Assembly (NCBI RefSeq): GCF_000300815.1
Contig: NZ_AMRX01000006.1
Location: 124,001-188,000 of the forward strand
Length of the DNA: 64,000 nt
Source of the DNA: Gayadomonas joobiniege G7
GTDB taxonomy: Bacteria; Pseudomonadota; Gammaproteobacteria; Enterobacterales; Alteromonadaceae
Direction: 5' to 3'
Both the position numbers and the translations under genes were made by a program. The number at the start of each line of letters is the position of its first letter. Positions within the stretch are counted from its first letter, which is position 1. Shown here piece by piece: positions 32,762 through 37,696 of this stretch. The notes under the pieces were generated by a model. That model saw only the letters and a program-made list of their open reading frames with translations, was not told the origin of the DNA and ran no database searches.

Positions 32762-34009
32762 GTGCGTAAAGTCTATTCAAACTTAGGACAACAACTTTGC
32801 CAGTCATCTGGGATTGTTGATTTGATGCAAGATCTGGGTGATGCGTTAAATGAAAACCCGGATATATTATTTTTGGGAGGGGGCAATCCAGCCGACATTC
32901 CCGAATTTAAAGCTAAAATGCATAGCTATTTAAGCAATGTGCTTCAGTCACCGGAAAAACTGCATAAATTGTTGGGTGTTTACCAATCCCCCCAAGGTGA
33001 TTTAGCAGTCAGAAGACAACTGGCCGTTTATTTTAAACAGTTAGGCTGGCCGGTATCGGAAGATAATTTAGCGTTAGCCAATGGCAGCCAGTCGATATTT
33101 TTTGCGCTAATCAATATGCTCGCAGGTCAATGTGATGAACAAAAGCGGCAATTGTTATTTCCGATGGCGCCTGAATATTTGGGATATGCTGATCAAGCCT
33201 TGGGGGATGAGTATTTTACGGCGGTGACCCCTAAAATAGAGCTTATAGGTGAGCATGAGTTTAAATATCATATCGATTTTGACAAACTAGTGATTAGCAA
33301 TAATATCGCAGCGCTTTGTATTTCGTCACCAGCGAATCCAAGTGGTAATTTAGTCAGTCATCAAGAGTTGGCCAGATTAGATGCCCTTGCTGAAGCACAT
33401 CAAATACCTTTGATTATCGATTGTGCTTATGGCTCGCCTTTTCCGGGCATTGTTTATGAACCTCAGAAGTTACCATGGCTTAAAAATGCAGTTTATGTGT
33501 TCAGTTTATCGAAGTTGGGATTACCTGCCTGCCGCACGGGTATCATTCTTGGCAATACAAAATTGATTAAAGATTTTGTGCAAGCAACCACTGTGATGAA
33601 TCTAGCCACCGCCAGCACTGGTATGGTATTGCTCAATGAATTACTTGAGCACCAGGCTTTGGATATTGTGTGCCAACAAATAGTGCAACCCTATTACCGT
33701 AAAAAGCGAGATTTTATCATTGCTCTAATCAAAGCCGAATTCAGTCATTTAGACTACCGAATTCATCTGGCTCAAGGGGCCTTTTTTATTTGGTTATGGT
33801 TGCCAAAATTAAAAATAACCAGTTCGGAACTTTATCAAATATTGAAACAGCAAGGCGTTTTAGTGATGGACGGTGCGCCTTTCTTTTTTGCGATTAAAGA
33901 TGATTACGCGCATAAACAACAATGTCTGCGTTTATCATATTGTCAAGAGGAGAGTGTGATCCAAAGCGCGATTCGGATCATAAAAAATACTGTGGAAAAA
34001 TATTATTAA
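32762..34009 (+). CDS. avtA: Valine-pyruvate aminotransferase
   Basis: A 415-residue fold-type I PLP enzyme. The start KVYSNLGQQLCQSSGIVDLM and FLGGGNPADIP (near residue 38) are characteristic of AvtA. The PLP lysine lies in VFSLSKLGLPACRTG near residue 250. It transfers amino groups between valine, alanine and their oxo acids. Translation begins at GTG. Divergent from purEK. Confidence 0.9.
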   Translation: MRKVYSNLGQQLCQSSGIVDLMQDLGDALNENPDILFLGGGNPADIPEFKAKMHSYLSNVLQSPEKLHKLLGVYQSPQGDLAVRRQLAVYFKQLGWPVSEDNLALANGSQSIFFALINMLAGQCDEQKRQLLFPMAPEYLGYADQALGDEYFTAVTPKIELIGEHEFKYHIDFDKLVISNNIAALCISSPANPSGNLVSHQELARLDALAEAHQIPLIIDCAYGSPFPGIVYEPQKLPWLKNAVYVFSLSKLGLPACRTGIILGNTKLIKDFVQATTVMNLATASTGMVLLNELLEHQALDIVCQQIVQPYYRKKRDFIIALIKAEFSHLDYRIHLAQGAFFIWLWLPKLKITSSELYQILKQQGVLVMDGAPFFFAIKDDYAHKQQCLRLSYCQEESVIQSAIRIIKNTVEKYY

Positions 34010-34116
34010 CCTGCTTTGTTTTTATGCTTTTTTGTTCTATATAAACTACTTGTAGTTTTTTTATTTAGTGTAAATATAGCGCCGTTTTTAACGGTCAACT
34101 TCTTAAGGCTTCAAGC

Positions 34117-35022
34117 ATGAAAATTGCCATCTTATCCAGAAATGAAAATTTATATTCAACTCGGCGTTTAAAAGAAGCTGCACTCGCCCGTGGCCATCAA
34201 ATTGACGTGATAGATACGCTGCATTGTTATATGGATATTACAAGTAACAACCCGTCAGTACGATACGAGGGACGTCAACTTCCCGCATACGATGCTATTA
34301 TTCCGCGTATTGGTGCGTCCATTACTTTTTACGGTACGGCAGTTGTTCGTCAATTTGAAATGATGGGCACGTTTTCGATTAACGAATCGGTTGCGATCAG
34401 TCGCTCACGAGATAAATTAAGATCTTTGCAATTATTATCGCGCAAAGGCATAGGTTTGCCTAAAACTGGTTTTGCAAAACATCCCGACAATATTTCTGAT
34501 TTAATTGAAAATGTTGGTGGCGCACCTGTGGTTATCAAACTGCTTGAAGGAACCCAAGGTATTGGGGTTGTTTTAGCCGACACCGAAAAAGCAGCGGAAA
34601 GTATTATTGAAGCTTTTATGGGATTAAAAGCCAATATTTTGGTGCAAGAGTTTATTAAAGAAGCCGGGGGAGCCGACATACGCTGTTTAGTTATTGGCGA
34701 CAAAGTTGTTGCTGCAATGAAGCGACAAGCGGCTGCCGGTGAGTTTCGCTCAAACTTACACCGTGGCGGCACAGCTGAAATTGTTCGACTAAGCAAAGAA
34801 GAACGGGCGACGGCTATTAATGCCGCCAAGGTCATGGGGCTAAGACTGTGTGGGGTAGATATTTTACGCTCTAGCCGAGGCCCAGTTGTCATGGAGGTTA
34901 ACTCGTCACCCGGTCTAGAAGGCATAGAAACAGCCACAGGCAAAGATGTTGCAGATCTGGTTATTCAGCACTTAGAAAAAAACGCCCGGCCAAATGCGAC
35001 CCGTACCAAAGGTAAAGGCTGA
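34117..35022 (+). CDS. rimK: ATP-grasp glutamate ligase RimK
   Basis: A 301-residue ATP-grasp ligase of the RimK family: [20 protein letters not shown] at the start, [16 protein letters not shown] (near residue 143) and the metal-binding [14 protein letters not shown] (near 258). E. coli RimK adds glutamates to the C terminus of ribosomal protein S6 and can make polyglutamate. A TGATG overlap couples it to the next gene. In Pseudomonas RimK works with RimB, a retropepsin-like protein; a RimB-like gene occurs three genes downstream here. Confidence 0.95.
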
Positions 35023-36035
35023 TGAAAGACATAGTAATTGCTGGGGTAAGTGTTAAACCCGGCGAGCAAAAAACAATCGATATTCCTGCCGCCCGGTTAT
35101 ACACTGACTTAGAGGCCTTTGTTGAAGTTAAAGTCATCCGTGGGCGACGACCAGGGCCTTGTGTATTTATTAGTGCTGCTATTCATGGCGACGAGCTAAA
35201 TGGCATAGAAATTGCCCGTCGGCTGTTAAAAAGTCGCAGCATTAATGCGTTAAAAGGTACTTTGATAGTGGTACCTATTTTAAATGTATTGGGGGTACTC
35301 AATCAAAGCCGCTACTTACCTGATCGACGGGACCTCAACCGTTCGTTTCCCGGTTCTGCAAAAGGAAGTCTAGCTGGGCGGCTAGCGCATTTATTTCTTC
35401 AACAGATTGTTTGTCACTGTGATTATGGTATTGATTTGCATACAGGGGCGATTCACCGCTCAAATTTACCGCAAATCAGAGCCGATTTAGCCGATGAAAA
35501 AACCATGGAATTGGCCAAGTCGTTTGGTGTTCCGGTATTGTTAAATGCAGATATTAGAGATGGTTCGTTACGTGAATCTGCCGGCCATATGGGGTGCCGA
35601 GTTTTATTATACGAAGCAGGGGAAGCATTAAGGTTTGATGAACTGTCAATTCGCGCAGGTGTTGCCGGTATTTTAAATGTCATGGCAGCACTTGGCATGA
35701 TACGTAAATCAAGCCGGCGAAAAGCGCTTGAACCCTATATAGCTAAAAGCAGCCGTTGGGTGAGAGCGGTTAGCAGTGGTATTGTCAGGGAGCGGGTCGG
35801 TTTAGGTGATATGGTTGAAAAAAACCAGTTGATTGCTGAGATAGGCAACCCAATGGGTAATGAAGTTGTGCCTTTGCATGCACCTTTTGCTGGCATTGTA
35901 ATTGGCAAATCAAATATTCCTTTGGTTCATGAAGGGGAAGCTATGTATCATATCGCGGCTTTTTCTAAAATTAATGATGTGGGTGACGAGGTGGAAATGT
36001 TGGCCGATACATATTTGCCAAGCAACAATATTTAG
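35022..36035 (+). CDS. Succinylglutamate desuccinylase / aspartoacylase family hydrolase
   Basis: A 337-residue zinc carboxypeptidase-like protein of the AstE/AspA family. The Zn ligands are visible: AAIHGDELNGIEIARR (His and Glu, near residues 49-64) and YGIDLHTGA (His, near 140). The C-terminal domain resembles a biotinyl-lipoyl-type beta fold (GIVRERVGLGDMVEKNQLIAE). The family removes acyl groups or acidic amino acids from amides. It is not in an arginine-degradation operon, so AstE is unlikely; rimK coupling suggests acting on glutamylated substrates (inference). Confidence 0.85.
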   Translation: MKDIVIAGVSVKPGEQKTIDIPAARLYTDLEAFVEVKVIRGRRPGPCVFISAAIHGDELNGIEIARRLLKSRSINALKGTLIVVPILNVLGVLNQSRYLPDRRDLNRSFPGSAKGSLAGRLAHLFLQQIVCHCDYGIDLHTGAIHRSNLPQIRADLADEKTMELAKSFGVPVLLNADIRDGSLRESAGHMGCRVLLYEAGEALRFDELSIRAGVAGILNVMAALGMIRKSSRRKALEPYIAKSSRWVRAVSSGIVRERVGLGDMVEKNQLIAEIGNPMGNEVVPLHAPFAGIVIGKSNIPLVHEGEAMYHIAAFSKINDVGDEVEMLADTYLPSNNI

Positions 36036-36043
36036 GATGTATT

Positions 36044-36586
36044 ATGAGTAGTTTTTTGTTTTCACTGTTGGCACTAGTGGGTTTTTGGTTTTTAAAAAAT
36101 ACCAGCCGTGCATTGGTAGAGCGTATTGGCCAAGAAAAACAAATTGACGAAAAGCGCATTCATTATGTCAAAATGGTGATCACGCTCGCTTTGGCTGTCG
36201 TGACATTTATGCTGATTAGCATAGTATTGGGCATTGATTATAGTCATTTGGCTATTTTCTTTTCCTCTGCGTTTGCGGTAATTGGGGTGGCGTTTTTTGC
36301 TCAGTGGTCAATACTAAGTAATGTTACAGCCAGTGTGATGGTTTATTTCTTTTTTCCATACCGGGTTGGCGATACAGTGACTATTGTTGATGGTGAAAAC
36401 AGCGTGAGCGGAAAAATATCCGAAATCACTTTATTTCATGTGATCTTAAAAAATCCATCGGGTAGAATCGCCACTTATCCAAATAGTTTAGTATTTCAGA
36501 AAGCTGTTATGATAGAGCCGCTTAATCCGACCCAGACGGATACCATTGTGACCACAGAGGAAAATAACAGAGATGCAAACCGATAA
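36044..36586 (+). CDS. MscS-type mechanosensitive channel domain protein
   Basis: A 180-residue membrane protein with about three hydrophobic helices (residues 3-18, 42-65 and 72-105). The last resembles MscS TM3, and is followed by the beta domain FPYRVGDTVTIVDGENSVSG and IATYPNSLVFQKAVM. It is short for MscS (E. coli 286) and lacks the C-terminal alpha/beta domain. It would allow osmolyte or ion flux. It overlaps the next gene by 14 bases. Confidence 0.82.
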   Translation: MSSFLFSLLALVGFWFLKNTSRALVERIGQEKQIDEKRIHYVKMVITLALAVVTFMLISIVLGIDYSHLAIFFSSAFAVIGVAFFAQWSILSNVTASVMVYFFFPYRVGDTVTIVDGENSVSGKISEITLFHVILKNPSGRIATYPNSLVFQKAVMIEPLNPTQTDTIVTTEENNRDANR

Positions 36587-37013
36587 AATGTTAGTTGGGG
36601 CATTGGAAGTCTGCAGTTTGCCAGATTTAGGTATTTCAGATATTAAAGTACGGGTTGATACAGGGGCTCAAACATCGTCTTTGCACGTGGACAATGTGCA
36701 AACTATTACCTACCGGGGCAAACCTTGGATTGAGTTCGATATTCATCCGGACCTTTATCATGTTGAAGAAGTGGTGCGCAGTAAAGCGCCTCTTAAAGAC
36801 GTACGTTGGGTTAAGAGCTCAAACGGTGCCCGAGAACAAAGGTATGTGATCACCACAACCTTAGTGATGGGACCACGTAGTTGGCCGATTTTAATTACGC
36901 TTACAGACCGTTCAGAAATGAATTATTTAATGCTGTTGGGTCGTCAGGGGATGGCAGATCAACTGCTAGTTGACCCGTCACAAACCTTTATTTGCAGCAA
37001 TGAAATTGATTAA
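36573..37013 (+). CDS. Retropepsin-like RimB / ATP-dependent zinc protease family protein
   Basis: A 146-residue protein of the Zn_protease (PF05618-type) family. The aspartic-protease-like motif RVDTGAQTSSLH (residues 27-38) is intact, with MLLGRQGMADQLLVDPS near the C terminus. The fold resembles retropepsins; Pseudomonas RimB belongs here and acts with RimK on glutamylated S6. It overlaps the MscS-like gene and ends four bases into the convergent Yip1 gene. Confidence 0.85.
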   Translation: MQTDKMLVGALEVCSLPDLGISDIKVRVDTGAQTSSLHVDNVQTITYRGKPWIEFDIHPDLYHVEEVVRSKAPLKDVRWVKSSNGAREQRYVITTTLVMGPRSWPILITLTDRSEMNYLMLLGRQGMADQLLVDPSQTFICSNEID

Positions 37014-37696
37014 AATAACAGGCTAAACGCGATCATCATGAGCACAGGGATAAAACATATGTAGCCGATGGTTGCCGTTTTTAGCTGAGTTTTAATTGAT
37101 AAACCATAAAATAACAGAACAAAAGTCCACAGGCTGAAAAAATCAAAACTGGCTGCAAATGAATACAAGGGCTGCCCAGGCGCCAAGTTAAGGAGTTGGT
37201 TGAGCGAGGTGATTTGCAATTGGTACAACGAGGCTTGACCATCTTCGCTAAACAGTAAAACGATAATCGCCAGCCCGAGTTGAAAAATTACAGGTATCTG
37301 TAACCACCAATAAAATCCGTACCAGTTTTTAAAACTGTCTGTATTTTCTGTATCTAGTTTGGTCGCGATATTTAGATAAGCCGCTGCTAACAAGCCTTGC
37401 AACATAAGCATTAACTGGCTACCAAACACACTTGAATATTTTATCACTTCTGGCGTCATTTCTCGCGCTAATGCTTGCCGCTCCTGTTCACTGGCTTGCG
37501 GCAAGGATTCTGATAAGGTCATATTGATAAGCCATTGGGTATCTATCATAGAAAAATATAGGCTCCAAAAAATCAGTAGACTAAGGTTAACAATAAAAAA
37601 TGGAAACCAAGCAGATAAGGTTTGTTGTTCAATCTGATTAAACGCGTATTTAGGGCGGCTTATGAGGTCGCCGAGTAGAATGATATATTGATTCAT
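37010..37696 (-). CDS. Yip1 domain membrane protein
   Basis: A 228-residue protein with about five hydrophobic helices and the Yip1-domain start MNQYIILLGDLISRPKYAFN. The function in bacteria is unknown. I chose the ATG at 37696; a longer reading from TTG at 37759 would add 21 residues and run into the natA promoter region. It is divergent from natA by 72 bases and could be functionally linked to the ABC exporter. Confidence 0.7.
   Translation of the reverse strand: MNQYIILLGDLISRPKYAFNQIEQQTLSAWFPFFIVNLSLLIFWSLYFSMIDTQWLINMTLSESLPQASEQERQALAREMTPEVIKYSSVFGSQLMLMLQGLLAAAYLNIATKLDTENTDSFKNWYGFYWWLQIPVIFQLGLAIIVLLFSEDGQASLYQLQITSLNQLLNLAPGQPLYSFAASFDFFSLWTFVLLFYGLSIKTQLKTATIGYICFIPVLMMIAFSLLF

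Follow-up and report, generated by a model that had tools for sequence, protein, structure and literature searches.

RimK has long been known as the glutamate ligase of ribosomal protein S6, with no agreement on what purpose this serves. What, then, might it be doing in a unit that also encodes a hydrolase, a channel and a protease? Such a unit occupies positions 34117–37013 of a 64,000-nucleotide stretch of the genome of Gayadomonas joobiniege G7 (hereafter the window), as one tight group of four open reading frames (ORFs) on the same strand. An earlier interpretation of this DNA (the sequence-only reading) had described four overlapping or nearly touching genes here, and these are indeed present on the + strand: rimK, an S6-type alpha-L-glutamate ligase of the ATP-grasp type (34117..35022; 301 amino acids, aa; NF007764, PF08443, PF18030); aspA, an AstE/AspA-fold hydrolase and putative zinc enzyme, here called the hydrolase (35022..36035; 337 aa; PF24827); mscS, a minimal MscS-like channel protein (36044..36586; 180 aa; PF00924); and rimB-like, a RimB-like retropepsin (36573..37013; 146 aa; PF05618, with a DTG motif). 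Base 35022 is common to the rimK stop and the aspA start, a gap of eight bases separates the aspA end (36035) from the mscS start (36044), and mscS and the rimB-like gene overlap by 14 bases (36573–36586). Comparison across genomes shows that the core of this arrangement is rimK with the hydrolase, usually together with rimB, and that MscS is one of several ion-transport neighbours of that core. We read the unit as a poly-alpha-glutamate turnover module linked to ionic or osmotic adaptation, an account whose chances we put a little short of even.

Within the window's family, rimK and the hydrolase are very tightly tied; outside the family the link is broad without being universal. Among 59 genomes of the family, a hydrolase orthologue (threshold E < 1e-99) was found in 46, and 45 of those 46 encode an S6-type RimK over the cut-off; in the last one (G038) rimK is cut at the contig edge and was detected by tblastn only. 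The remaining 13 genomes lack both genes (Fisher p 2.5e-13, uncorrected for ancestry), so the extra hydrolase singled out by the sequence-only reading proves to be a recurrent companion, present in the same 46 genomes as rimK (hereafter rim+; the other 13, rim-). At 47 further loci from the family, rimK is present at every one and rimB at 42. Two genomes (G017 and G045) retain rimK and the hydrolase and show no PF05618 match, which makes the pair the minimal unit and suggests that the hydrolase may be an independent reversal arm. Second rimK–hydrolase copies that lack rimB were also seen at L042 (G050:C15) and L066 (G054:C130), the other copy in each genome having it.

Beyond these 47 family loci, we inspected 80 named loci, for 127 related loci in all (with two duplicates, L094 = L050 and L105 = L066); the 80 are the best-scoring of at least 575 relatives, hence not a random sample, and include members of the window's family, two of them repeating family loci. 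In this set rimK lies near the hydrolase at 68 of 80 loci, rimB at 59 and both at 58, in many orders (with B, K and A for rimB, rimK and aspA: BKA 29, KAB 16, hydrolase alone 11, KA 9, KBA 4, BAK 3, others 8); 12 loci have no rimK nearby, as judged from the locus surroundings only. The organisms include a planctomycete, a Nitrospirota metagenome-assembled genome (MAG), Arcobacter MAGs and the archaeon Methanolobus bombayensis. The order of Methanolobus encodes the hydrolase in 19 of 119 genomes, with an adjacent rimK in 19/19 and rimB in 17/19, and the family of Vibrio salinus encodes it in 84 of 101, where 30 inspected loci had rimK beside the hydrolase in all 30 and rimB in 24. The cyanobacterium Acaryochloris carries rimB-rimK-aspA, and in two Photobacterium records the rimK and hydrolase matches lie 16 and 37 bases apart. 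Neither gene is bound to the other everywhere: the stretches seen around the plasmid-borne RimK of Leisingera, Allocoleopsis, Thioclava and Aureibacter contain neither a hydrolase nor a separate RimB, and the hydrolases of a Haloferax plasmid and a Legionella lytica plasmid (35–36% identity) do not adjoin rimK. Hydrolases without a nearby rimK were also observed at L109, L098 and L168, where they adjoin an OPT oligopeptide transporter, a CitMHS transporter and an MgtC/DUF4010 protein. Two hydrolase frames appear interrupted: a stop or a sequence error divides that at L121:5947-6990 into two ORFs, and that on a Vibrio parahaemolyticus plasmid (L304:5956-7037) runs across two frames, in a stretch that gave no rimK match.

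The exact quartet rarely co-occurs. An MscS ORF stands between aspA and rimB at just three of the 127 loci (L041, from the same genus, L045 and L092), with a short, weak MscS-like ORF in that place at L103, and the idea that all four genes form the conserved unit thus falls by the very survey that the sequence-only reading had named as its refutation. What recurs is the kind of neighbor. At 22 of the 47 family loci, MscS genes of various kinds are found within 4.5 kb of aspA, where 0.7 genes would be expected from their density in rim+ genomes (1.69 per megabase, over 0.411 megabases scanned), and CorA-family genes lie near 11 of the 47 against 0.06 expected; among the family genomes, 32 of the 46 rim+ and none of the 13 rim- have a CorA match. 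One CorA-family member that was scored is closest to ZntB, below the ZntB cut-off. MgtE is near nine of the 47 loci, a count that has no background figure. Of the 80 best-scoring named loci, 20 have MscS, 15 CorA and 10 MgtE nearby, and at least one of the three is found near 29 of the 47 family and 29 of the 80 named loci. The positions and strands of these transporter genes vary, so that a single inherited arrangement does not explain them. The osmotic part of the earlier proposal is therefore upheld by MscS and CorA neighbours far above background; for its other part, an export component, no evidence on polymer export was found. The window's own MscS-like protein matches the PF00924 beta domain (41 bits, cut-off 20.2) and gave no match to the C-terminal MscS domain PF21082 at E 0.001, a domain present in a 300-aa MscS neighbour type; a profile of its relatives matches YnaI and MscS chains, and solved structures include chains of 171–174 aa called MscS.

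The set is seen most clearly in the plasmid-borne relatives. On a Vibrio europaeus plasmid, one strand carries a diguanylate cyclase gene, rimK, aspA, rimB, mgtE (a magnesium transporter), corA, mscS (190 aa) and a universal stress gene, and on two Salinivibrio plasmids rimB-rimK-aspA is flanked by mscS and the gene of a magnesium transporter; in Phaeobacter, zntB is two genes from rimB. A Vibrio nigripulchritudo plasmid carries rimK-aspA-rimB-mscS about 3.4 kb from ask-ectC-ectB-ectA, with proVWX further out. A general link to ectoine was tested and rejected: neither the window nor any of the 127 loci matched ectA, ectB, ectC or ask, and a single locus (L119) matched proW and proX, so that the osmolyte genes are peculiar to the V. 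nigripulchritudo plasmid. The presence of GGDEF/EAL and LysR genes near 24 and 28 of the 127 loci was not used as evidence, since such genes are common in genomes and these counts have no background figure. Some members of the family, and likewise the V. nigripulchritudo plasmid, have a LysR gene divergent from and directly 5' of rimK (e.g., L050, L070, L072, L076, L112, L303), a possible local regulator.

Active-site residues are intact. The window RimK passes the curated S6-ligase model NF007764 (467 bits, cut-off 331), and its closest solved chains are 7qyr (E 1e-144) and 7qys (E 1.9e-140). Three RimK-like frames elsewhere (G015:C112:837159, G033:C11:338956 and G014:C5:22421) are longer than RimK, at 406–437 aa, and score near or under the S6-ligase cut-off. 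The retropepsin matches PF05618 (104 bits, cut-off 27); it falls below the NCBIfam RimB equivalog cut-off (NF052261, 107 bits vs. 200) and is for this reason filed as RimB-like only. Its DTG motif is D29 T30 G31, and D29, G31, R90 and R113 are invariant in 13 of 13 aligned sequences. By their spacing, R90 and R113 probably correspond to R114 and R137 of RloA, which passages of a published study report as important for polyglutamate cleavage (PMC12239564).

The hydrolase matches the PF24827 catalytic domain (148 bits, cut-off 25), and its residues H55, E58, H140, E198, R153 and R204 do not vary across the 43 sequences aligned; H55, E58, H140 and E198 are presumably, by analogy, the zinc ligands and the catalytic residue. 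R204 is lost in three unlinked hydrolase paralogues. An AlphaFold2 model built on the 43-sequence alignment is confident (pLDDT 91.8), and its top Foldseek match is DoeB/EutE (6twm, TMq 0.80); CphZ, the cyanophycin dipeptide hydrolase, ranks 19th (TMq 0.75, about 14% identity), and AstE and human aspartoacylase come lower (TMq about 0.55). CphZ hydrolyses dipeptides of cyanophycin, a polymer made by an ATP-grasp enzyme, and this parallel, together with the linkage to rimK, suggests that the hydrolase breaks down the RimK product.

That RimK and RimB form a reversible system is already established: a ligase and protease pair adding and removing glutamate, with S6 modification, has been published for Pseudomonas (passages of PMC11957791). 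The reversible glutamylation module put forward by the sequence-only reading accordingly stands as chemistry, and is not by itself undescribed. In the turnover module that we propose, RimK would join glutamates with ATP, either at the C-terminus of S6, as free poly-alpha-glutamate, or both; internal cuts in the glutamate chain would be made by the RimB-like protease; the hydrolase would turn oligoglutamate or C-terminal glutamates into free glutamate, much as CphZ acts on cyanophycin dipeptides; and the MscS-like channel, with the CorA-type and MgtE proteins of relatives, would adjust solutes and divalent cations in response to shifts in external salt.

Published expression and distribution data are consistent with such a coupling, in which we take the orthologue group K05844 to be rimK. 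In passages of these studies, Photobacterium damselae rimK is reported 52-fold up at 1% vs. 3% NaCl, with an MgtE magnesium transporter, non-adjacent by locus number, 5.35-fold up (PMC10308900); K05844 is commoner in brackish than in marine genomes, as are CorA-type magnesium uptake and mechanosensitive channel groups (PMC10219603); and the RimB-related RloA proteases are required in hypo-osmotic medium (PMC12239564). Low-salt induction of one rimK has thus been shown by others, and a coupling of the whole module to salt would extend from it.

Several observations weigh against the turnover module. The 52-fold figure from P. damselae is for rimK, not for the genes beside it; a P. aeruginosa rimB deletion had no hypo-osmotic phenotype in the passages available (PMC12239564). 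The window's own genome has no CorA match, and neither the CorA nor the MgtE from the plasmid cassette has a match in the window itself. DoeB, the best fold match of known function, is a small-molecule deacetylase and not a peptidase. V. campbellii LJC015 and Vibrio sp. THAF190c have rimK and rimB together with no hydrolase within 24 kb, and in passages of PMC10092738 Pseudomonas rimK-rimB operons are described without a hydrolase and enterobacterial rimK alone, so the hydrolase is not needed everywhere. Shared ancestry, finally, inflates the neighbourhood counts.

A bolder form of the same idea, possible and on balance rather doubtful, is that marine bacteria and some methanogens use poly-alpha-glutamate as a dedicated ionic buffer, with S6 tailing as just one branch of the chemistry. 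Free glutamates, each an osmole with its counter-ion, would be joined by RimK into one polyanion that would keep their charge, lower osmotic pressure and bind divalent cations; the RimB-like protease and the hydrolase would restore free glutamate, with MscS, CorA-type and MgtE proteins balancing the ions.

An alternative that we consider unlikely places the unit in small-molecule metabolism, with the hydrolase cleaving N-acyl amino acids and RimK making or using small glutamyl compounds, perhaps osmolytes; mammalian RIMKL enzymes and aspartoacylase offer the comparison. The PF24827 family acts on N-acyl compounds, and DoeB, the N-acetyl-diaminobutyrate deacetylase, is the nearest solved relative of the hydrolase with a known function. 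Against this, the hydrolase scores far below the cut-offs for DoeB (TIGR02994, 82 vs. 403 bits), AstE (TIGR03242, 25 vs. 306 bits) and aspartoacylase (NF002601, 25 vs. 180 bits), and a protease of the polyglutamate type accompanies it in 42 of the 47 family loci.

Another alternative, also improbable in our estimate, is that RimK and RimB serve to adjust the S6 tail, and through it translation, with the hydrolase trimming the tail and MscS a passenger. In its favour, the window RimK scores above the S6-ligase cut-off, RimK and RimB are on record as modifying S6 in Pseudomonas, as above (PMC11957791), and the window genome's S6 ends in Glu, which permits glutamylation. The distribution of such termini points the other way: a terminal Glu was seen in the S6 of 34 of the 45 rim+ and all 12 rim- family genomes examined (G004 and G029 are omitted, G029 having no S6 match listed). 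Among other bacteria that carry a hydrolase locus, 5 of 19 genomes have it, and the triad of rimB, rimK and hydrolase occurs in three Arcobacter-group genomes whose S6 proteins end in KKAN, KKSA and KANK. The Methanolobus genome gave no S6 match, though RimB-RimK-AspA is present, and to our knowledge archaea have no S6. It is thus improbable that the system acts on S6 alone, and we disfavour S6 as sole target; the ion-transport neighbours far over background are a further point against a purely translational role. The suggestion of action beyond S6, made from the window, gains support from the archaeal triad. Last, chance adjacency of four genes with no shared function is hardly credible and was rejected: the rarity of the exact quartet (3/127) is in its favour, and it is opposed by the co-occurrence (rimK and hydrolase both in 46, neither in 13, of 59 genomes), by linkage kept across many gene orders, archaea, a cyanobacterium and plasmids, and by the neighbour enrichment.

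The unit can be set beside four described systems. Pseudomonas rimABK comprises the RimK ligase, the RimB retropepsin and RimA, a cyclic di-GMP phosphodiesterase (passages of PMC11957791 and PMC10092738); the window shares a RimK of the same family (7qyr/7qys) and a PF05618 retropepsin, whereas it has no RimA-type EAL match in the quartet's four products or the three flanking proteins scanned (P. aeruginosa operons likewise lack the RimA EAL; PMC10092738), its retropepsin is under the RimB equivalog cut-off, and it adds a hydrolase and a channel, neither mentioned for the Pseudomonas operon in the passages searched. Pseudomonas rloABC, a secreted retropepsin, an inactive transglutaminase and an ATP-grasp protein tied to hypo-osmotic stress (passages of PMC12239564), resembles the window in pairing a retropepsin with an ATP-grasp protein, but the window retropepsin lacks the long N-terminal extension and no match to RloB, the inactive transglutaminase membrane protein, was found among the quartet proteins. 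The window's own genome holds, at G000:C2:125849-128631 (L001, L039, L091), a second PF05618 gene, whose 260-aa frame has an N-terminus like that of a lipoprotein; a gene with a RimK domain lies about 2.3 kb beyond, and the pair resembles an rlo-type locus. Cyanophycin breakdown by CphZ (8eip/8ein) offers a related fold and a hydrolase for the pieces of an ATP-made polypeptide, but the polymer differs, identity is about 14% and the role of the window hydrolase would be carried over by analogy. DoeB/EutE (6twm), from ectoine use, is the nearest solved fold with known function; unlike it, the window hydrolase is under the DoeB cut-off and sits in a different gene setting.

Around the quartet, rimK is preceded, at a distance of 107 bases, by a gene that matches valine-pyruvate transaminase, and a convergent Yip1-domain gene lies on the 3' side. 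A promoter scan gave no excess over shuffles. Terminator-like hairpins number 11 in window positions 33900-37200 against a shuffle mean of 3.4; most are intragenic.

Three things are new relative to the literature searched: the partnership of RimK with the hydrolase, its ion-transport setting, and an archaeal example that gave no S6 match. The first two were not found in that literature; a 2009 survey of amidoligase gene neighbourhoods may already note the RimK–hydrolase link. For the family, a rimK that has its hydrolase companion in every rim+ genome, in an ion-transport neighbourhood, gains a concrete setting, namely change in salt and divalent cations; the ion channels and magnesium transporters of relatives hint at a role in coping with changing salt. 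The hydrolase is a candidate for the missing breakdown step, and the archaeal case allows a direct search for another substrate of RimK.

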